A stretch of DNA of 64,000 nucleotides from contig OV277868.1 of the NCBI GenBank assembly GCA_922989275.2, positions 55,054,216-55,118,215 of the forward strand. Reading direction: 5' to 3'. Origin of the DNA: Gari tellinella. Taxonomy: Eukaryota; Mollusca; Bivalvia; Cardiida; Psammobiidae. A program made the position numbers and the translations under genes. Below are positions 14,833 through 57,650 of this stretch, in pieces. Within the stretch, counting starts at the first letter, position 1. Each line of letters begins with the position of its first letter. The notes under the pieces are model-generated. The model was not told the origin of the DNA, ran no database searches, and was given only the letters and a program-made list of their open reading frames with translations.

Positions 14833-14879
14833 TGTTTTACTCGTCGTTAGGGTTTAACTTTTCAGACAGTTATTTTTAC

Positions 14880-16020
14880 CTTTACATCCTCCAGGTGTTT
14901 TCAAGAAAGGGTTGCTGTACAAGTTGTTTAGTGTAGCCCAATAGTGCTCATCTGGCGTGTACGTATCTCTGGACCAGTCGAGCAAGTCCTGTGCCATCTT
15001 GTTCTCCAGAACAAACTCCACAAACTTCCGGCTGAACACGTTGTATGCGTTCCCTTTCGTAATCGTTAGCTTATGAGGTGGAGCTTCTTTCGTTAAATTT
15101 GTATTAATTATATACGCAGTGTCTGTGTCCAGATATGTTATATACTTCTGCATGAATCGTTTCGCATCCATTGTAGAAAACACTTCGTGGATATCGTTTG
15201 CTCCTTTATAAAGAGTCATAATCTGAACCATCTGAAAGTTTGACAGAAGCGGAAGTTCACTCGACGCCATGTTTATTAAATATTTCCATTCTGACTGTCG
15301 TTTTACATGGTCATGCATGCAATTGATATCGGCCTGTAATCGCCTATAGCTGGCGTAAATCACTGTTTCCAACGTGGAAGCTACAAAAACATTGTCAAAG
15401 CAGTTAGCTATGCCTAACACTGCTGCCAAGACTTCCGGTGTTGCCTTTTTATCCACATGAATACAGTACTGGTTTTGGGGTGCGTAGATAACTCGCAAGA
15501 GGCGTTCTAACTGTTCCACGTTTTGATACATTAGTATGTTAAATGCTATAGGAAATACCCGCTCTGCCTCAGTAGATGGTTCTGTAGGATATCCCCGTAA
15601 TTGTTTAAATCTATCACAATTTCTAGTGAGTAAGTCAAATATAGTATCCCGTCTATGTGTAAAATTATGATTGTGTAAGGACAGATAGTCCTTTGCTCTA
15701 CGTAGTTCTTTCGGGTCATTGTCAAATAGTTTGGCACAGTTGATGTTTGGCTTCTGTGGGTTGACTAGAAGGTCTGGATATGGCAGGTTTTGGCGTGGCA
15801 AACTTGGCGTTGCAAACTCTGGCTTTGGAATCGGGAATGTTATTGGCGCTGGTGATGCCACACGATTGGGCTGATAGGCGTGAACTAGTTCCGGTCCGTC
15901 AAATATCACAACGTTGGTGGAGGTTTTATCCATCATAACAAAAGCAAGCAGCACCATTAGAAATATTATCAGTGAGAAGTAGGCGAAACATGACACAAAC
16001 TTTCGCCTAAGACGACGCAT
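14880..16020 (-). CDS. GCNT-family beta-1,6-N-acetylglucosaminyltransferase, exon 1 (380 codons plus 1 base)
   Basis: Glycosyltransferase family 14 (core-2/I branching) enzyme, expected to add GlcNAc in beta-1,6 linkage to O-glycans in the Golgi. The ATG at 16018-16020 opens a basic tail RRLRRK and a hydrophobic segment (residues about 12-30), making a type II membrane protein, then a proline-rich stem (51-93). The catalytic region starts near 155: FPIAFNILMY, YCIHVDKKA (186-194), LQADINCMHDHV, WKYLINMASSELPLLSNF and GNAYNVFSRKFVEFV. TPDEHYWATL holds the likely catalytic glutamate E358. N-glycosylation sequons are NFT (119) and NLT (308). The frame runs 8 codons past the donor into the intron. 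With exon 2 the protein has 480 codons including the stop, a little above the usual 400-450 residues because of the stem. The acceptor substrate cannot be assigned. Confidence 0.93.
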
Positions 16021-47398: not shown

Positions 47399-47650
47399 AT
47401 ATAGAGGAGAACACGTTATTCTTTCCCGTTTAAACGCAAACGAAACGCAAACGCATCGCATTAAAATGGAGAAATTAACAACTTGTTGACAATTTTAAAA
47501 GTTCATTTTCATCTGAGTGGCAAACAGTTTGGAGCCTGATCAGACGCCGGGTTACCCGGCGTCTGATCTGGCTACAAACTGTTTGCAAGAGAGATAATAG
47601 TTTTAGCGTAAACGCGTTTACTGGGAAATAATTACGTTTTCTCCACTGTA
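47399..47650. mobile_element. Family A MITE, copy 15
   Basis: TATAGAGGAGAACACGTTAT ... TTACGTTTTCTCCACTGTA. H1 core at about 47520-47585. Confidence 0.85.
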
Positions 47651-47683
47651 GCAATTGTTTCCATATAGTCTATGCTAGGGGAC

Positions 47684-47945
47684 ATCAGTGGAGAAAACGT
47701 TATTTTCCTTCCCGTTTAAACGCAAACGAAACGCAAGTTTTACACATTGCAATAAAACGTGGACAATGACAACTGTTTGACAATTCTCACTATTTATTTG
47801 AATCTGAGTGGCAAATAGTGTGGAGCCTGATCAGACGCCGGGTTACCCGGCGTCTGATCTGGCTCCATACTGTTTGCACTGTAAATGGTAGTTTAAATAG
47901 CGTAAACGCGTTTATTGGGAACAAATAACGCGTTTTCTCTACTGT
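47684..47945. mobile_element. Family A MITE, copy 16
   Basis: ATCAGTGGAGAAAACGTTAT ... GCGTTTTCTCTACTGT. H1 core at about 47812-47876; extra TTTTACAC in the left part. 33 bases from copy 15. Confidence 0.8.
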
Positions 47946-48283
47946 TGACACGGTCTCCACTAAATTTTGAAATCATTGAATGTGTACACATATAGAAATC
48001 GATGTACCAAACATGCAATATGCGCGTCCGGGCTAAGTAATCTCTTCTAACTGCAATGAGTTTGGCATTTGCAGACAGCTTTGAGCCAGATCAGATGCCC
48101 AGAAACTCGGCTTCCGAACAGGATAAAAAACCGATTAAATTCTTTTTTTTTCTAAAGTTAAAATGGCTTAAACCTACACTTGAGAAAAGGTGCATAAAGC
48201 AGACAAGAACGGTGAATTTCTACATGTAACAATGAGTCAGTCGGAGGTATTGAAAAAGTAAACAAATCAATAGAAATTTCGGC

Positions 48284-48489
48284 TTAACCCTTATCGTGCT
48301 AAGTGCTAACATTTGCAAACAGTTGGATCCAGATCAGACGCCGCGTAACGCGGCGTCTGATCTTGATCAAAACTGTTTGTCACTCATATTCAACATTTCT
48401 TCAGATCAAGAACCGTTCGACATTATTTTGATCTTCTTTCGCAGACGATATGTTTGAAGCAGACGACAATTTTGCATGATAAGGGTTAA
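48284..48489. mobile_element. Family B MITE, intact copy
   Basis: TTAACCCTTATCGTGCTAAG and GATAAGGGTTAA ends with TTAA on both sides. H1 core at about 48314-48380 (loop GCCGCGTAACGCGGC), then GAAGCAGACGACAATTTTGC. Confidence 0.8.
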
Positions 48490-48518
48490 TACCTTTTAAC
48501 CCACCCGTCTCTTTAAAC

Positions 48519-48714
48519 CCTTTCTCAGACAAAATACCGTCTGCTAAAATGTGTTGTCTTCAAGTTTGTGAAAAATTCAAAGTTATTGACCAAAGACGTA
48601 TTGATAACAGTGGAACTTAGTTTGGATCCTGGTCCGACGTCGCGTCACGCGGCGTCTGATCTGGATCTGAACTGTATGCATAGTCGACTCGTCTATGGCA
48701 GTAAAACGATTAAA
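48519..48714. mobile_element. Family B MITE, reverse copy
   Basis: TTAAACCCTTTCTCAGACAA, TACCGTCTGCTAAAATG, H1 core at about 48617-48680 (loop GTCGCGTCACGCGGC), GCAGTAAAACGATTAA. A further half core lies at 48800-48860. Confidence 0.65.
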
Positions 48715-48858
48715 CGCAGTATTAATTGCCATTAGCTCTAGATCAAATAATAACATTGAATAGCTATGAATATTTTCAGAGATTTAAACCTCGAAAGTCA
48801 GACATTTTGGTTCTTGATCAGACACTACGTTACGTGACGTCTTATCAGGTCCCAAACT

Positions 48859-48875
48859 GCTATCTATCTATCTAT
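48859..48875. repeat. (TATC)4 microsatellite, LINE 3' tail
   Basis: TATCTATCTATCTAT lies directly after the minus-strand stop of the LINE frame, where many LINEs end in a short simple repeat. Confidence 0.65.
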
Positions 48876-48943
48876 GGGGCACGCTGCTTGCACGGAATCG
48901 CATGACCAAACTCCTCCACCCGTCTCTGTTTTCCATCAGTGTT
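48868..48943 (-). pseudogene. LINE C-terminal frame, distal part (split by the 7.8-kb element)
   Basis: On the minus strand the frame interrupted at 56732 continues here with ENRDGWRSLV and stops with TAG at 48868-48870. The pattern MxxRDxWR near the C-terminus is common in non-LTR retrotransposon polyproteins. The two parts share the 6-bp duplication at 48938-48943 and 56732-56737. Confidence 0.8.
48938..48943. repeat. Target-site duplication, left (AGTGTT)
   Basis: Identical to 56732-56737 and directly outside the long inverted repeats. Confidence 0.85.
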
Positions 48944-49262
48944 AGTAGTTATACGTGACTCGAAATAACAGGGCCACATTTATGATCGGCCACATTTATG
49001 ATCAGGTCAATATATAGAACGTTCCTCGCGTTAGACGACGAAGGCATTCGATTGGAAGACGGAAACGCCCGATATCGGTAAACGGATTAAGCCGAGACTA
49101 GGGTAAATAGAGTCGGGGTAAAAACGGCTTATCGATCGTCACCAACTAAGACCAGCGAGCGTAACCTTAACCTACGAAGAACGCCGAAATCGAGAGTTAG
49201 TTCGTTATCGCGATTAACGCATACTATGTACAGTGCACCCGCGTTAAGCATACAACATTTCA

Positions 49263-49487
49263 GTGAATAAACTTCCTGTAGCTTTGACGCAAACAGAAAG
49301 TTGTATGGTTGTACTGTATTATCGGCTTAAGATAAATCATGCGAGTGAGACGGAAATAGTCGATATTCCCCGAGTCAATTCCCGTAATATTAATACAGTT
49401 CGTCGATTGGTCTACGGTAACATCCGAACGGGTACGGAGAGAGGTCATTATTTACCTACCTGCGAAATTGTTTATATAAATACTTAA
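49263..49487 (+). CDS. 74-residue ORF, left arm (uncertain)
   Basis: Starts MNKLPVALTQTESCM and ends EIVYINT. It is open in both arms (mirror copy 56188-56412) and in line with the three genes that follow, 102 bases before the next. I recognise no family. An antisense frame of similar size overlaps it, so coding is not certain. Confidence 0.4.
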   Translation: MNKLPVALTQTESCMVVLYYRLKINHASETEIVDIPRVNSRNINTVRRLVYGNIRTGTERGHYLPTCEIVYINT

Positions 49488-49589
49488 GTCTACTACCATC
49501 GATCGATTTGTGAAAGAACAGATATACTTTGAAAACTGTAACTACATAAACATAGTATTACAATATTTCTTCAAGAGCGAAAACTGAAA

Positions 49590-49928
49590 ATGAAGCCGGT
49601 TCAAGCATATCTACCAAATTACGAATTTTGGACTAATTATTACCAGTCTCGCGCATCGTCAGAACACCCCAAATACTTTCCACATGAAAGAAAACGTTGC
49701 GGTCCGAGGGAGGAGTATATCTGTACAAAAGGGGAAAGTAAAACAATTCCGACTGAATACGGCGTAAAAGTTGAATTAGTTTCTCCGACGAAGCAAGTTG
49801 TCGAGCGGGCTGCGAGGGAAATACAACGACAGAGCGATAAATTGGTGAAACGGCGTGTAGGTAAAAACAGGCAGAGAAAGAGAAAAGCAGGAAAACACAT
49901 CGATGAAGTTGAATGCCACAAATTCTGA
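49590..49928 (+). CDS. 112-residue basic protein, left arm
   Basis: Starts MKPVQAYLPNYEFWTNYY and contains YFPHERKRCGPREEY and VKVELVSPTKQVVERAAREI. The C-terminus is very basic (KRRVGKNRQRKRKAGKH), suggesting nucleic-acid binding or nuclear entry. The identical frame lies in the right arm; there a 14-bp deletion upstream lets the frame extend backwards, but the shared ATG is the likelier start. It is 54 bases upstream of the PC4-like gene. No family is recognised; a small structural or DNA-binding protein of a mobile element is a guess. Confidence 0.6.
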   Translation: MKPVQAYLPNYEFWTNYYQSRASSEHPKYFPHERKRCGPREEYICTKGESKTIPTEYGVKVELVSPTKQVVERAAREIQRQSDKLVKRRVGKNRQRKRKAGKHIDEVECHKF

Positions 49929-49982
49929 TTATCCGATACGCGCTTAGACCTGCAATGTTAAATTAAGGTCCAGGAGGTTGCA

Positions 49983-50237
49983 ATGTCACAAGCTTACATC
50001 GACGCATTTAGAATGGAAAATACTCAGTCATCCAATGAGACAGAAAACAAAAACAGAAAAATTAGTATACATTTGGATGGGATTCATCACGTGTCTATCT
50101 TCCAAAATGGCGACGGACAGATAGTCTTAAATTTAAGGAAAGGGACTAGATCTGTGACCATTTCAAAAGACGTTATGTTACAAATATGCGAGTTAAAAAG
50201 CATGCTTGTCCAATGCTGTAATTTTATAGATTGTTAA
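49983..50237 (+). CDS. 84-residue PC4-like protein, left arm
   Basis: The centre, ISIHLDGIHHVSIFQNGDG, QIVLNLRKGTRSVTIS, then KDVMLQICELKSML, follows the strand-turn-strand and final-helix pattern of the PC4/p15 single-stranded-DNA-binding fold (hVSI...G.I.L..R.G..S..I....W..L). The N-terminus (MSQAYIDAFRMENTQSS) is polar. The match is by eye and remote. Such a protein would suit replication or transcription of a DNA element. An identical copy sits in the right arm. Confidence 0.6.
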   Translation: MSQAYIDAFRMENTQSSNETENKNRKISIHLDGIHHVSIFQNGDGQIVLNLRKGTRSVTISKDVMLQICELKSMLVQCCNFIDC

Positions 50238-50484
50238 CGGCGAGGAAAAAAATATTTTTTTACTCTGGAGATATTACGGTTGGGAGTTTATTCACGTTTC
50301 AGTAAGGTGCCTCTTCAAGCCTCTTTCAGACAAATAAGTTAACTCCTCGTGTCAATAGTTTAACTCCGCGCATTTACTATTCACCTCCTCTCGATAGTAC
50401 GAACTATGCGCATTGATAAGGAGGGAACCAGATTGATCAAGTCATTCTCTTACTACTTTTCGCCGGATTAACATCGTCGACGGA

Positions 50485-51033
50485 ATGATTGCCTGTGGTA
50501 TTTGCGAAAAAGAATTTAAACGTAAAGACAACATGTTGCGGCACATGAAATCACAACACGGACACGACGGATCAGACAATGAATCTAAGAAAGACTACCT
50601 AAGTGACAAAGATACTACCGATGAGTCAGACATGGACACAGACGCTGGAGGGAAGGAGGTCACTATAGACCCTTGGCTCGATATGATTGAATACATATAT
50701 AAAACGCTTCAACCCGAGTTCCGCCAAAAGGTATCTGAATTATTGGAAGAGGCCGATGTTACGGAAAAGGAGGCGAGGAATAAAGCATTCGACGAACTGT
50801 TGCCAAAGTACAGGAAGCTACTCGTCAATAGATATTTAGTTAGAGTTTTGTGGTTTGATTCCGTCAAACACGACCCCATTCATACGGCCATCAGAAGGAC
50901 AGCGAGGCGCCTAGCAGAAGAAGAAGACTACGAGAGTGAAGAATCCTGGAAATACGCAGCTAATAAGCGGAAGTACCTTTTCGACAAATTACTGAAGGAA
51001 TATAATCCACCGGAAACGAATGAAAACCGTTAA
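50485..51033 (+). CDS. 182-residue C2H2 zinc-finger protein
   Basis: Residues 4-25 form a zinc finger C-X2-C-X12-H-X4-H: CGIC, then KRKDNMLRHMKSQH. An acidic linker follows (SDKDTTDESDMDTD), then a helical domain of about 110 residues: DPWLDMIEYIYKTLQPEF, EEADVTEKEARNKAFDELLP, KYRKLLVNRYLVRVLWFDSV, KHDPIHTAIRRTARRL and YAANKRKYLFDKLLKEY. My recollection is that proteins with this layout recur in invertebrate genomes. The first six codons lie in the left inverted repeat; in the right arm the same start leads to nine codons and a stop. Intronless and intact. Confidence 0.75.
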   Translation: MIACGICEKEFKRKDNMLRHMKSQHGHDGSDNESKKDYLSDKDTTDESDMDTDAGGKEVTIDPWLDMIEYIYKTLQPEFRQKVSELLEEADVTEKEARNKAFDELLPKYRKLLVNRYLVRVLWFDSVKHDPIHTAIRRTARRLAEEEDYESEESWKYAANKRKYLFDKLLKEYNPPETNENR

Positions 51034-51286
51034 ATGAAATAAAAATGACTGTCAGAATTAAATATGTACTAAACTACATGTCAACGAGTAAAGTTTACAG
51101 ACGCTTGAACATTAGATTACATGCTAGCTTTTGGATATCAATTCGCTGCGTTTATAAATATATTTATTTTGAACTGACACACTCATTTCAATTGTATTTC
51201 TTAGAGTTTTTATCAATAAATTATGAAACAAAGATATCGTGTTGCTTAAGCGTTATTTCCCCTATCTTTTCATACGCAAGAAAGAT

Positions 51287-51288
51287 AG

Positions 51289-51344
<56 letters not shown>

Positions 51345-51642
51345 TGAGAGACACTCCCGTATAGTTAAAATGGGTAAACGCATAGCAACCCGATCCTCTA
51401 TATACTACCTTTCTTTCTCTTTCTCCCTCTCTCTGTGTCTCTCCCTGTCTCTCTTTGTCTCTCTCTCTCTACCTCTTTGACTCTATCTCTGTCTCCATTT
51501 TTCTCTCTCACTCACTCACTCACACTCTGTCTCTGTCTCTGTCTCTCTCTCTCTAACTCTTTGTGTGTGTCTCTTTCCCTCTGTCTATATATGTATCTCC
51601 GTCGCTCAGTCTCAGACTCTGTCTTTACTCTCTCTGTCTGTC

Positions 51643-51689
<47 letters not shown>

Positions 51690-51940
51690 TCCCTACCTCT
51701 ACCTCTCTCTCTAAATATGGATCCCTCCATCTCTCTACCTCTCTGCCAATGATTGGCCGTGCACCGGACTGTCTGATAGAGCTTAACCTGAAATAATAGT
51801 AACAGTTCTTTGAATGTTTATGTTTCATATCATTTAGATCAAATATTCAAGTATTTAAGTGAGAATTGAATTGTTTTCAATTGTGCCTGTGTGTAAGTGT
51901 GTGTGTGTATTACATATTTAATTGGGGGGGGGGGGGGGGG
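51287..51940. repeat. Simple-sequence cluster: (GA)n, (CT)n, (GT)n and G17
   Basis: GA/GACA tract at 51287-51347, CT-rich tract at about 51410-51755, GT tract at about 51891-51908 and a run of 17 G at 51924-51940. It separates the zinc-finger gene from the transposase gene. The 100-, 105- and 67-codon frames here are artefacts. Confidence 0.95.
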
Positions 51941-52126
51941 TATTTTTTCAACATTTTATTTCGGCGGTCTGTAAAAGTTCCCGTTTCGACCGGCACCAGG
52001 TCTCATCAGTGATTCTGCCATTGAATCAGACGGGGGATTTTTTTTCTCCAAAACAATCGTAACTCAATTCTAGCTCTGTCCATCCGCCCCGCCCACTGTG
52101 TCACTGTGTCACAGTGTGGTAGCATG

Positions 52127-54037
52127 TCAGCAGCCCATTTTGTCTAACAGTCCTTTGACATATTCGTCTTGTCTTTCAGCAGTCGCACCTGTACGAGCTG
52201 TGTGATAGGTGTGCTCCAGCTCAGCTCTCCGCTTACGTCTTCTGGCCTTGAATGCAGTGGTTCCCTGAAGTCTTTTTCGTGCTGCAGACACACGAGACCT
52301 TTGTCGTAAGTAGCTCTTTGGTTTCGCAGAGAGGCTTTCACCAGTTATCAAACTCACTTTGGCTTCAATAGCTGTAACTAGAGAGTTGTTTAGCTGAAGC
52401 GTTTTAGAGGCTAGTTTTCCAGCAAAGTTCCGACAGTAATTCACTTCCTTCGGCAAAATTGACAGCACACCACGGTTGAATGCCTCGCATTTCTGTGTGT
52501 CTGTATTAGAGGCCACATTGATTATAGCCTGCTCACTCAGCCTTATCTGCAGAATGCTTCCGAGTAGTTCCTTGTCCTGTTCGGTCATTTTCAGGCTGTT
52601 TATGTTGTGCGTCGGCAAAAACTCTGAGTGGAACCACCAGTCGCCTTGGCCCCCAACTCCATTGCAGACCAGTGATCTATGAGGACATAGACCACAGTTG
52701 CCAGAATAGCATTCAACCGTAGCAGAACAAACACTCGGAAGTAAAGGTAATGTTCGCCTGAGGTCCCCATCTCCAAGAATCCGCAGTTTACTGATTATTT
52801 TAGAGCATCGTGACTTGACGTCTTTTGCAAAAGCTGCTATGGCTTGCTGCTTGGTCAGTCGTGTCACTTTGTTAGGGAACATGTCTCTACTCCAGTTTGC
52901 TTTTCTCGAGTGTCTGACTACAGTGCTTCCCAAATTGTGTGGGTCTGCTTGCCGCGTAACATCCCAAGCTTCTCCTAGTTCTCGGTAAAAGTCCTGCATG
53001 CCCAAAAATGACCTCGTATCGCCATCTGTCGTCAGGGTTCGAACCACTATGTCGTCCTCCCATAGTTGCTGAGCGACATCATGCGCCATGCGTCTCTCAG
53101 AATGGGGCTGCATGTATGGGATGTTGGCAGTGCAACCTTCATGTTTTCCAGGACATTTCACCTCCTCGTACTTATGCTTCCTTTTTAACAGTGCTCCCGT
53201 CAAGCAAAGTTTGTTCTCAATCGCAAGAGCAAGCACAAACTTATACTCACTGTGGTTCTCTATAGCCACACCATATGCCTGGGATCCTGATTGTCCTGGC
53301 TTGTATGAAGAAACCATCCGGGTCGCATTGTACCGACAGTCAAAGGAAAGATCAAGCTGTCTCGGATCATTTGCACCTTTAGCTTCGTTCTGCTGAATAA
53401 TCCATTTTCTTTTCTTTGACATGTCATCTTCATTTAAGGAAATGGTTGATGCTGACATTTCATTGACCAAACTCTGCAGGTGGCTTTGTGATGGAGGTGG
53501 TATGTCCATTGAAGATAGCAGTATATTTCCTTTCTCCACACCAATGCAGGTATCTTGTAGGCCTGATGCTAGCAGCATGTTGACGGCAGCCCCTCGTCTT
53601 TTCCCGGCTCTCGGCCTATACGTTTGGCAAGGCTTGGACACAAACTGGCATGTAGAACAGGCAAATGTTAGATCCGAGCCTAAGCCAAGTTTCCTTTCGC
53701 TGAGAAGTCTCAGTTTCATGGACTCGCAGTTGACCGGATGGTTGCCGTGGTCATTCGAAACAGTACTTATGACCTCTAGCAGCTGATCTAGGCTGATTAT
53801 TCGGTTGCCCGTGTTTTCCAGGTTTCCCCTCGGACGAAGACATGGCCCCAGATTCTCCTGTTGTCCATCGTTTATGTGAAGAACTGGAACAGGAATGTGC
53901 ACAGGTGTGACTTTTTCAGCTGAAGTGTGTTTGGTGACACGAGACGTCCGCTTGTTGTTGCTGCCGAAGAGATGTCCGGCCCGTCGGCGTTTCAGTTTTC
54001 CTTTCTTAGACATGGCGCTTGGAATTGGAGCAAACAC
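52127..54037 (-). CDS. Mutator-like transposase, 636 residues
   Basis: Single-exon gene, ATG at 54035-54037. The N-terminus is basic (KKGKLKRRR). From about residue 108 it follows the Mutator-like transposase domain of invertebrates: LTFACSTCQ with paired cysteines, AGKRRGAAVNMLLASGLQD, then MDIPPPSQSHLQSL. DLSFDCRYN provides D233, TLTTDGDTRS provides D338 and TQKCEAFNRGVL provides E518, a plausible DDE triad. Between the second D and E lie CYSGNCGLCPHRSLVC and HNLGSTVVRH, resembling the Cys/His insertions of such proteins. The C-terminus is basic (KARRRKRR). No stop or frameshift, so it may be active. It points towards the left arm and has no co-directional neighbour. Whether it moves this element or is itself an insertion is unclear. 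Confidence 0.85.
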   Translation of the reverse strand: MFAPIPSAMSKKGKLKRRRAGHLFGSNNKRTSRVTKHTSAEKVTPVHIPVPVLHINDGQQENLGPCLRPRGNLENTGNRIISLDQLLEVISTVSNDHGNHPVNCESMKLRLLSERKLGLGSDLTFACSTCQFVSKPCQTYRPRAGKRRGAAVNMLLASGLQDTCIGVEKGNILLSSMDIPPPSQSHLQSLVNEMSASTISLNEDDMSKKRKWIIQQNEAKGANDPRQLDLSFDCRYNATRMVSSYKPGQSGSQAYGVAIENHSEYKFVLALAIENKLCLTGALLKRKHKYEEVKCPGKHEGCTANIPYMQPHSERRMAHDVAQQLWEDDIVVRTLTTDGDTRSFLGMQDFYRELGEAWDVTRQADPHNLGSTVVRHSRKANWSRDMFPNKVTRLTKQQAIAAFAKDVKSRCSKIISKLRILGDGDLRRTLPLLPSVCSATVECYSGNCGLCPHRSLVCNGVGGQGDWWFHSEFLPTHNINSLKMTEQDKELLGSILQIRLSEQAIINVASNTDTQKCEAFNRGVLSILPKEVNYCRNFAGKLASKTLQLNNSLVTAIEAKVSLITGESLSAKPKSYLRQRSRVSAARKRLQGTTAFKARRRKRRAELEHTYHTARTGATAERQDEYVKGLLDKMGC

Positions 54038-55189
54038 TGGTAGAGTATAGTGTAACTCTCAGAATCTGGCTGCTAATGAAATGGCCCATTGATGGCTCTG
54101 TTTATATGCAGTTACACTTGCAGTGTACATCAGCCAGGCAGACAAGGTCCCTTGGGAGGGCGTCTGGATTTGGTCATTTTTAAAGTGTGCATCTCAAGTG
54201 ATGTTGTTAAGTACAGGCTGGAGAGGCTCAACATCAGTGGGGACTGACTTTACTTCCTGGTCCTGTGTCAATTTGTTAAAAGAGTCAAGCAGATGCATTT
54301 TTCTGATGAAATAATAATTTTTTCCCCCCTTTAAAGTTAAAGAAACCTTTGAAATGTAAGAATTTAAAGCAAATTTTAAAGGATTTTCATGTTTATCAGC
54401 AGGTTAAAGGTGTAAAGGGTAGACTGGTGTATTTGGTTTTATTTTTTCCAGGTAATACATGAACATTGAACTACAAAACTATTTATTTGACCAGAGTCCA
54501 GTGACAATTCCAAGACTTATTCAAGTTTCCGTAGAAGCTGTCAGTACCCTCAAAACATTGCGGCCGAGCTGTGAGATTGGCCGAGACAGTAAGTTTTTCA
54601 ATTTAGCCCAGCTCCCTTAAAAATGGTTGGATCCACTTGTGATTGCTTTTACTTTACTCAGAAATGTATCAAAAGTTGGAGGAGACTATTAAACATTGTT
54701 TCTTAAAAGATTTGGGACAAATACTGGTGTGACACCGGTGAGGAAGTGCTTCCTGAGGTCGTAGTACAGTAAAAAGTAGATCTTTAAAATTGCCATCTGT
54801 CCAAATATGGATCTAAAAGTGTCTATTAGACCTGGCATGCCTTGTAATGTCATATGTTCAAGAAATTTTGTGTATTCTCTGCCCATTGTGGCAATTTTCT
54901 GTTTCTTTTTGGAGAACTACTTCCTCTTGTGGCTGTTGGGGAAAGTGAGGGTGATAGGTCGGAAATGGTCAAATTTAAACTGAAAGTAGACGGTGCATAA
55001 ATACTTTTCTCAGTAGCAAAAAAAGCAGCCAATCTTGCCCTAGTTTTCTAGTGATGGAGAGGCAGTGCTTGGACCAAATATCAATGGGTTAAATGAGTTA
55101 AGCCCAAATCTATTCTTGGGAGAATCCAAGCGATGTGGAAAATGACTGTTTTACAAAGAAGAAAGAAGGTCAAATTAGACCGGAGTCAC
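54038..55189. other. Interior spacer between transposase and right arm
   Basis: Would contain the transposase promoter (minus strand, just above 54037). A splice-like segment on the plus strand at 54452-54588 (TTTTTTCCAG before, ACA|GTAAGT after) has an open frame from its ATG but an in-frame stop just upstream. Minus-strand frames at 54689-55032 are unrecognised. Confidence 0.4.
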
Positions 55190-55451
55190 ACCACAGGCAA
55201 TCATTCCGTCGACGATGTTAATCCGGCGAAAAGTAGTAAGAGAATGACTTGATCAATCTGGTTCCCTCCTTATTAATGCGCATAGTTCGTACTATCGAGA
55301 GGAGGTGAATAGTAAATGCGCGGAGTTAAACTATTGACACGAGGAGTTAACTTATTTGTCTGAAAGAGGCTTGAGGAGGCACCTTACTGAAACGTGAATA
55401 AACTCCCAACCGTAATATCTCCAGAGTAAAACATTTTTTTTTTCCTCGCCG

Positions 55452-55706
55452 TTAACAATCTATAAAATTACAGCATTGGACAAGCATGCTTTTTAACTCG
55501 CATATTTGTAACATAACGTCTTTTGAAATGGTCACAGATCTAGTCCCTTTCCTTAAATTTAAGACTATCTGTCCGTCGCCATTTTGGAAGATAGACACGT
55601 GATGAATCCCATCCAAATGTATACTAATTTTTCTGTTTTTGTTTTCTGTCTCATTGGATGACTGAGTATTTTCCATTCTAAATGCGTCGATGTAAGCTTG
55701 TGACAT
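55452..55706 (-). CDS. 84-residue PC4-like protein, right arm copy
   Basis: The same protein as at 49983-50237, residue for residue, on the opposite strand. Having both copies intact suggests recent arm homogenisation or selection. Confidence 0.6.
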   Translation of the reverse strand: MSQAYIDAFRMENTQSSNETENKNRKISIHLDGIHHVSIFQNGDGQIVLNLRKGTRSVTISKDVMLQICELKSMLVQCCNFIDC

Positions 55707-55760
55707 TGCAACCTCCTGGACCTTGATTTAACATTGCAGGTCTAAGCGCGTATCGGATAA

Positions 55761-56099
55761 TCAGAATTTGTGGCATTCAACTTCATCGATGTGTTTTCCT
55801 GCTTTTCTCTTTCTCTGCCTGTTTTTACCTACACGCCGTTTCACCAATTTATCGCTCTGTCGTTGTATTTCCCTCGCAGCCCGCTCGACAACTTGCTTCG
55901 TCGGAGAAACTAATTCAACTTTTACGCCGTATTCAGTCGGAATTGTTTTACTTTCCCCTTTTGTACAGATATACTCCTCCCTCGGACCGCAACGTTTTCT
56001 TTCATGTGGAAAGTATTTGGGGTGTTCTGACGATGCGCGAGACTGGTAATAATTAGTCCAAAATTCGTAATTTGGTAGATATGCTTGAACCGGCTTCAT
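55761..56099 (-). CDS. 112-residue basic protein, right arm copy
   Basis: Identical to the left-arm protein from its ATG at 56097-56099. The frame stays open further upstream (to 56165, at a GTG) because of the 14-bp difference, adding KEQIYFENCNYIKFLQERK, but no ATG lies there. Confidence 0.6.
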   Translation of the reverse strand: MKPVQAYLPNYEFWTNYYQSRASSEHPKYFPHERKRCGPREEYICTKGESKTIPTEYGVKVELVSPTKQVVERAAREIQRQSDKLVKRRVGKNRQRKRKAGKHIDEVECHKF

Positions 56100-56187
56100 T
56101 TTCAGTTTTCGCTCTTGAAGAAATTTTATGTAGTTACAGTTTTCAAAGTATATCTGTTCTTTCACAAATCGATCGATGGTAGTAGAC

Positions 56188-56412
56188 TTAAGTATTTATA
56201 TAAACAATTTCGCAGGTAGGTAAATAATGACCTCTCTCCGTACCCGTTCGGATGTTACCGTAGACCAATCGACGAACTGTATTAATATTACGGGAATTGA
56301 CTCGGGGAATATCGACTATTTCCGTCTCACTCGCATGATTTATCTTAAGCCGATAATACAGTACAACCATACAACTTTCTGTTTGCGTCAAAGCTACAGG
56401 AAGTTTATTCAC
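56188..56412 (-). CDS. 74-residue ORF, right arm copy (uncertain)
   Basis: Identical frame to 49263-49487 on the opposite strand; same reservations. Confidence 0.4.
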   Translation of the reverse strand: MNKLPVALTQTESCMVVLYYRLKINHASETEIVDIPRVNSRNINTVRRLVYGNIRTGTERGHYLPTCEIVYINT

Positions 56413-56731
56413 TGAAATGTTGTATGCTTAACGCGGGTGCACTGTACATAGTATGCGTTAATCGCGATAACGAACTAACTCTCGATTTCGGCTTTCTTCG
56501 TAGGTTAAGGTTACGCTCGCTGGTCTTAGTTGGTGACGATCGATAAGCCGTTTTTACCCCGACTCTATTTACCCTAGTCTCGGCTTAATCCGTTTACCGA
56601 TATCGGGCGTTTCCGTCTTCCAATCGAATGCCTTCGTCGTCTAACGCGAGGAACGTTCTATATATTGACCTGATCATAAATGTGGCCGATCATAAATGTG
56701 GCCCTGTTATTTCGAGTCACGTATAACTACT

Positions 56732-56737
56732 AGTGTT
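56732..56737. repeat. Target-site duplication, right (AGTGTT)
   Basis: Copy of 48938-48943. Confidence 0.85.
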
Positions 56738-57385: not shown

Positions 57386-57569
57386 AGATTATAGCGCATC
57401 CAAGGGCATACATTGAGTACTAGTAGCAATTTGTAATCCTGTATTTGAGATAATGAAGCAACTGTTCTGTATTCTTCATCTGCTTATCTTCTTTATACAT
57501 GAGAATTGTCACAGATGACATAAGACTATATTACGTAGCAACGGCGGGATGTTAAAACAATTTTGTCTA

Positions 57570-57650
57570 AATGCAAACAATTTGGAGTCAGATAAGAATT
57601 CCAGAAACTCGGCGTCTAACCAGGCTTCAAACTCTTTGCCACTCAGATTA
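57570..57650. repeat. H1 hairpin, family A type, worn
   Basis: GCAAACAATTTGGAGTCAGA, loop TTCCAGAAACTCGGCG, CAGGCTTCAAACTCTTTGCC. Confidence 0.5.

Follow-up and report, generated by a model that had tools for sequence, protein, structure and literature searches.

Background

Protein priming is the presumed mode of replication of Polintons, also called Mavericks, and the evidence for this from genomes is indirect. Hairpin and duplex forms are known for yeast pGKL1 and for adenovirus. A 1992 title, cited in PMC11071308, concerns kalilo, a linear plasmid of Neurospora, and a deletion derivative of it that forms hairpins. Here we analyze a 7.8-kb element at positions 48944-56731 of a 64,000-nucleotide stretch (hereafter, the window) of the genome of the bivalve Gari tellinella (assembly GCA_922989275.2, contig OV277868.1, positions 55,054,216 to 55,118,215, forward strand). 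From its anatomy, the element is almost certainly a damaged copy belonging to a multi-copy family of palindromes with Polinton tips, probably satellites of Polintons, and carries a nested insertion.

Anatomy of the window element

A first-pass annotation, made from the letters of the window, had described a 7.8-kb element with long inverted arms, AG...CT ends and a 6-bp duplication, and our analysis confirms this description. The ends read AGTAGTTATACG.../...CGTATAACTACT, the arms (~1.54 kb) are inverted repeats of 608 nucleotides (100% identity) and 938 nucleotides (99%), and AGTGTT lies on both sides. The right arm proper spans positions 55193-56731, the 3 further inner bases that match doing so by chance. 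The left half is complete and reaches a centre dyad, CCAAT-G-ATTGG. Each arm contains two open reading frames (ORFs) of 112 and 84 amino acids (aa), and a third of 182 aa, coding for a zinc finger, is whole on the left side only. The features of the element are the following:

48944-56731, no strand: whole element, a damaged palindrome with a nested insertion, delimited by arms, ends and duplication
48938-48943, no strand: left 6-bp target site duplication, AGTGTT
56732-56737, no strand: right 6-bp target site duplication, AGTGTT
48944-49222, plus strand: left tip common to full-size Polintons, 93% identical to the Polinton on C11 over 279 bases
48944-51751, plus strand: complete left half-element, ending at the centre base
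49590-49928, plus strand: left 112-aa ORF, 34-40% identical to its homolog, a Polinton protein of 126 aa
49983-50237, plus strand: left 84-aa ORF, homologous (52% over 83 aa) to the ORF that immediately precedes the integrase gene of Polinton L030
50485-51033, plus strand: left 182-aa ORF, C2H2/BED-type zinc finger
51279-51745, no strand: GA- and CT-rich simple repeats adjoining the centre
51746-51756, no strand: palindrome centre, CCAATGATTGG
51757-55192, no strand: nested Mutator-type element, left side deleted
52127-54013, minus strand: 628-aa transposase of the nested element (Pfam PF20700 'Mutator', 1.7e-46)
54726-55192, no strand: repeat R, ~470 bp, which forms the right terminus of the nested element and has CACACC as its exact end
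55193-56731, minus strand: right half-element remnant, 1,539 bp
55452-55706, minus strand: second copy of the 84-aa ORF
55761-56099, minus strand: second copy of the 112-aa ORF

The only large gene is the Mutator-like transposase, as the first-pass annotation had noted. The ORF list of the element contains no other ORF of at least 190 aa, so that a polymerase, an integrase, a major capsid protein and a packaging ATPase of the usual size are absent; by the same measure, it has no capsid, ATPase or protease genes. Neither the window element nor the palindromes examined bear genes for a protein-primed PolB or an rve integrase. The earlier statement that every Polinton core gene is lacking is correct for the hallmark genes, but a true Polinton elsewhere in this genome encodes homologs of two of the three small ones (112 and 84 aa). 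All frames were also said to be intact, which holds for this copy except that only the first four codons remain of the 182-aa gene on the right.

A multi-copy family of palindromes

Palindromy over the full length of whole family copies was not visible to the first-pass annotation from the window. The 112-aa protein has 92 matches in the 1.6-Gb genome (all 137 candidates scored), and the 182-aa protein at least 141 (150 of 376 candidates scored). We grouped 63 of the former, which include all those with at least 75% identity, and 108 of the latter, leaving out weak and some partial matches. This returned 33 related loci with at least 75% identity to the 112-aa protein, 24 of which (window included) host an inward-facing gene pair. 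The first 657 bases of the arm have at least 45 matches in the genome (40 of 86 candidates scored), and many of these form inverted pairs ~5.5 kb apart. All four of the ~5.5-kb copies that were compared in this way (L010, L011, L013 and L016) are self-complementary end to end, at 98.9-99.1%. Each of their ~2.75-kb halves contains the same three genes, so that a copy has two sets of them, both pointing inward. At the centre, family members read CCAAT-N-ATTGG, with almost no spacer. Almost certainly, the family element is a head-to-head inverted dimer of a ~2.75-kb unit, composed of an outer Polinton tip of ~280 bp, two small genes of Polinton type and a zinc-finger gene.

Exact 6-bp duplications, with a different sequence for each copy, flank 22 of the 25 copies where both flanks are testable. 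Those of L012 and L020 were read by eye, allowing a few extra bases at the tip (AGT or AGTT); in L021, 5 of the 6 bases are alike, and two copies have no duplication. The first-pass annotation had regarded copies with a different duplication length as evidence against its reading, and none occurs among the 25. The extra AGT units, seen in one or two copies, would fit slide-back copying at short terminal repeats, a habit of protein-primed polymerases.

A second objection raised at that stage was that the arms might derive from the assembly. Fold-back chimeras are known in long-read data and could generate false palindromes, but the 22 exact duplications join unlike flanks and some halves carry real differences. 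Because the duplications lie at distinct sites, we give hardly any credit to an assembly artefact.

The family also includes a 10.1-kb member (L028/L039, C4:3835562-3845694) with the 6-bp duplication AATATC; its left half is broken up by ~6.3 kb of other DNA and lacks the part near the centre. Two loci considered as single-unit parents of the 5.5-kb family, L044 and L045, turned out to be decayed fragments.

Genes of the palindromic unit

Among copies, the ratio of nonsynonymous to synonymous substitution rates (dN/dS) is lowest in the 182-aa gene (~0.10), followed by the 84-aa gene (0.18) and the 112-aa gene (0.60). These are rough values, tilted to the low side, for which every pair of related frames of full length was pooled. 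Frames were found by their start motif in 17, 19 and 17 of 21 half-elements (112-, 84- and 182-aa genes, respectively); the omission of broken frames (the 84-aa gene of L018 and the 182-aa genes of L021, L027 and L028) and of halves lacking the start motif favours a low ratio. The 182- and 84-aa genes appear to be under purifying selection, which suggests that the palindromes use their own genes.

In a search of 5.8 billion proteins, the 112-aa protein has no homolog and the 182-aa protein has 16. Among 17 viral-contig matches to patterns of the 182-aa protein, the one stretch that passed (L001) lies within a frame of 1929 aa on a phage-like contig and was discarded, by eye, as a match due to chance. 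According to PMC11071296, some adintoviruses carry zinc-finger genes, as does a Tegillarca virus, and the 182-aa gene may be related to these.

Tips shared with full-size Polintons

The end of a Polinton on C11 is 92.9% identical to the palindrome arm over 281 alignment columns, and a search of the genome with this tip returned at least 40 matches (40 of 75 candidates scored), with tips 91-96% alike. Three full-size Polintons, 13.8-14.9 kb long, have the tips of the palindrome family:

C11, 75059407-75074337: full-size Polinton between paired tips, 6-bp duplication TGTATT
C14, 39264271-39278065: full-size Polinton between paired tips, 6-bp duplication TAGGAA
C15, 41831211-41845995: full-size Polinton between paired tips, 6-bp duplication ATACCT

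All three contain a stop-free match to a PolB-like piece of the C14 Polinton, in frames of 1698, 1499 and 1701 aa (C11, C14 and C15, respectively). This piece bears the motifs KLIGNSAFGG and MDTDS, and we call the frame PolB-like from these two motifs, its size and its place. An integrase is present in the C11 Polinton, on which Pfam was run, and in L031, a Polinton piece with other flanks. In the piece of the C11 Polinton at L030, an integrase with rve and chromodomain is followed by ORFs of 134, 126, 441, 222 and 104 aa; those of 441 and 222 aa, which have no Pfam match, we take to be the capsid and the ATPase.

The first 34 bases of the C15 Polinton are identical to those of palindromes L014 and L019, and those of the C11 Polinton to L018. 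Because the genes are far diverged while the tips are so alike, down to a 0.7% difference between the left tip of the C15 Polinton and the tips of L019, we infer that helper Polinton and satellite have recently exchanged tips.

The palindromes share tips with full-size Polintons of the same genome, as non-autonomous Polinton derivatives would. The first-pass annotation was right in outline when it proposed a deleted Polinton relative that had gained a foreign transposase: tips, duplication length and two genes are of Polinton type, and full-size Polintons with the same tips are present. The shared tips and the duplication length argue that the enzymes of resident Polintons very probably mobilise the satellites. 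One could instead regard the palindromes as independent elements that rely on their own three small proteins or on host enzymes and merely resemble Polintons, and the purifying selection on the 182- and 84-aa genes lends itself to this explanation. We consider it very improbable, given a palindromic unit with neither polymerase nor integrase, tips nearly identical to those of the resident Polintons and an equal duplication length.

The genome as a whole is rich in Polintons, with at least 129 DNA_pol_B_2 matches (79 of 275 candidates scored), many in stop-free frames of 1,300-1,600 aa.

A nested Mutator-type element

The first-pass annotation had offered as an alternative a new class of transposon that joins long gene-bearing arms to a Mutator-like enzyme. 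Transposase and arms do lie together in the window. Elsewhere, however, the transposase resides in an element with its own terminal repeats. Positions 51757-55190 have at least 53 matches in the genome (40 of 120 candidates scored), and are found in full at 99% identity in three other places, one on C7 and two in tandem on C12, and partially elsewhere. The C12 tandem (L046, C12:24104400-24114399) is arranged as repeat-interior-repeat-interior-repeat, and its unit is bounded by direct repeats of ~470 bp, GGTGTGACACCGG...CCGGAGTCACACC. The same repeats also stand alone at 20 or more places (L046-L049 examined). By eye, the duplications that flank the Mutator-type element look 4 bp long. The element is absent from the other family copies and related loci inspected up to L045, a check made without L001 and without L002 and L004, both of which overlap the window. 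When the transposase was compared with viral contigs, none of 36 stretches passed.

Within the window copy, the right end of the nested element is exact (position 55192) and leaves four codons of the 182-aa gene on that side. The left side of the nested element has been lost, and at the break it adjoins the base after the palindrome centre. A simple insertion is ruled out by this deletion. The window alone returned only chance pairs as possible ends of the inserted element, and the copies elsewhere settled them. The transposase joins the palindrome by an exact terminus on one side and by a deletion on the other, and the window arms are not its ends. Jointly with the anatomy described above, we have little doubt that the transposase is part of a separate element inserted into this copy; the transposon class proposed earlier retains practically no probability.

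Almost certainly, a Mutator-type element entered the right half of this copy at a later time, and a deletion from the exact centre then removed ~1.27 kb of the right half together with the left side of the Mutator element. Such a starting point is plausible because palindrome centres are known weak points. In L025, the break likewise lies at the palindrome centre.

Further palindromic lineages

At least three palindromic lineages are present in this genome. Distant homologs of the 182-aa protein account for 50 loci among the 108 matches used, and six of them are found as outward-facing pairs. Three of these six pairs were inspected, and all three are palindromes:

L032: second lineage, 6,374 bp, duplication CTCTTT
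L033: second lineage, 6,581 bp, duplication GTTAAC
L042 (C8:19975800-19983800): third lineage, 4,998 bp, duplication TGCAGG, tip AGTAGTGGTATCAGC

The halves of L042 are 97.9% alike, with a centre spacer of 88 bp. The tips of the second and third lineages differ from those of the 5.5-kb family. That of the second lineage bounds three larger elements: one on C12 (16.7 kb) and one on C9 (16.5 kb), each flanked by a 6-bp duplication, and another of 26 kb on C11. All three match the polymerase-like piece at 46%, in frames of 1544, 836 and 538 aa (C12, C9 and C11, respectively), and only the C12 element, with its 1544-aa frame, looks whole. The sole single-unit relative found is L043, a non-palindromic relative of the second lineage (5,864 bp) that has a single set of genes. 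The side with the genes is 95% identical to either half of L032, starting at the centre and running outward, and L043 could show a starting form for a palindrome.

With 40 of 125 candidates scored, the second-lineage tip was also found at the ends of many smaller elements (2.2-6.9 kb), including C14:56263347-56265595, C3:24172512-24175617, C10:8520099-8523887 and others. These may be further satellites, palindromic or not.

Likeness of the halves and the mode of copying

We compared the two halves of 13 of 15 copies by counting mismatches over the outer ~2.1 kb (1.54 kb for the window), without gaps and the simple repeats near the centre; L022 and L024, which have large indels and only 42% and 34% in alignment, were not among the 13. 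The halves of the same copy differ by 0-0.45% in 10 of the 13. Between copies, the median divergence is 3.20% (0.67-5.70%, 55 pairs), as measured on the left halves of 11 copies (L020, L022 and L024 left out). A tree from which L022_R, L024_L and L024_R were omitted pairs the halves of the same 10 copies, with a support of 98/72 for the window pair and of at least 99/93 for the rest, unless identical. Since the halves are alike within copies and paired in the tree, they appear to be made alike again and again. A palindrome over the whole length with like halves, as found here, is what an inverted dimer replicating as a hairpin would show; the halves are unlike in 3 of the 13 copies.

The explanation that we favour, and hold to be probable as a whole, is that these are palindromic Polinton satellites, mobilised in trans and copied through a hairpin. 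The Polinton integrase would insert the satellites, giving the 6-bp duplication, and the Polinton polymerase would copy them, with protein priming at the shared tips. The displaced single strand would fold into a hairpin before insertion, and copying round the hairpin turn would yield an inverted dimer whose halves are alike and which ends in one and the same tip on either side. Hairpin copying by the polymerase of the helper is a step to which we lean with some reserve.

Several observations weigh against this explanation. No extrachromosomal or hairpin form was seen, in an analysis of assembled sequence where none could be sought. The halves of L012, L020 and L021 differ by 2.4-2.9%, blockwise, which gene conversion explains equally well. 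The two copies without duplication (L024 and C9:8.81 Mb) do not conform, the PolB-like frame has no polymerase match in Pfam and PDB searches, and the integrase was seen only in the C11 Polinton and L031. Moreover, the 112-aa gene is weakly constrained (dN/dS 0.60), and the 84- or 182-aa frames are broken in some copies.

Chromosomal gene conversion is in fact a serious rival, and arm-to-arm conversion is known from the palindromes of the Y chromosome. With the same anatomy and the same helper, a rare inverted duplication would have founded each lineage, the element would move as ordinary double-stranded DNA, and conversion between the arms would even out the halves. The blockwise identity of the three mosaic copies resembles conversion tracts, and these copies fit either reading. 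Furthermore, tips are exchanged between elements, so that conversion-like exchange does occur. On the other hand, the halves of these three copies have stayed unlike without the copies being clearly younger (their nearest relatives are 1.0-3.4% away), and with three or more palindromic lineages the form arose or was kept repeatedly. Neither point is decisive. We judge copying without a hairpin to be possible and rather unlikely, and hairpin copying remains our preferred reading.

Surroundings of the element

Several copies of a ~72-bp dyad-symmetric repeat around GATCAGACGCC...GGCGTCTGATC flank the element (window positions 47516-48865 and 57569-57640), and a sequence resembling it is also found beside other loci. 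Elsewhere in the window, a 388-aa ORF (14854-16020, minus strand) may code for a glycosyltransferase of the core-2 GlcNAc-transferase type.

Comparison with known systems

We found no description of palindromic Polintons in the accessible parts of the open-licence literature on Polintons, foldback and palindromic transposons, adintoviruses, adenovirus palindromes and protein-primed plasmids, which is weak evidence of novelty, and the word palindrome does not occur in the available portions of PMC11071296 and PMC11071308. We tentatively suggest, without giving it the better chance, that the satellites represent a distinct lifestyle of mobile DNA: selected, gene-bearing, whole-length palindromes that would replicate as hairpins via the protein-primed polymerase of a helper Polinton and repeatedly exchange tips with it. 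If true, the palindromes would stand to Polintons much as dependent satellites do to viruses, with at least three lineages in one animal genome. Each insertion may then record the outcome of fold-back copying, which would open the protein-priming step to tests in an animal. Polintons, commonly viewed as large and self-contained, would also prove to sustain small dependents with genes of their own, and palindromes of 5-6 kb, which are normally unstable, would prove able to last as mobile DNA.

Among known systems, Polintons/Mavericks (and adintoviruses) resemble the palindromes in their AG...CT tips, their 6-bp duplications, the tips common to resident full-size copies and the homologs of two small genes. 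The palindromes differ in being palindromic over their whole length, in their size of ~5.5 kb, in bearing each gene twice and in having neither polymerase nor integrase. The likeness to Mutator-type elements (PF20700) comes from the nested transposase (1.7e-46), which lies outside the palindromic element proper. The nested element is itself an odd form, with direct terminal repeats of ~470 bp and duplications of ~4 bp, compared to 8-11 bp for Mutator. To our knowledge, foldback transposons do not carry genes or share Polinton ends. What they have in common with the palindromes is very long inverted repeats, as in Tetris of Drosophila virilis (available part of PMC4079207). The closest precedent that we met is the kalilo derivative, which by its title is likewise a deletion derivative of a protein-primed element, with hairpin and duplex forms. 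It is a plasmid, whereas the palindromes described here are integrated, gene-bearing, multi-copy lineages of an animal genome, for which we infer the hairpin form.

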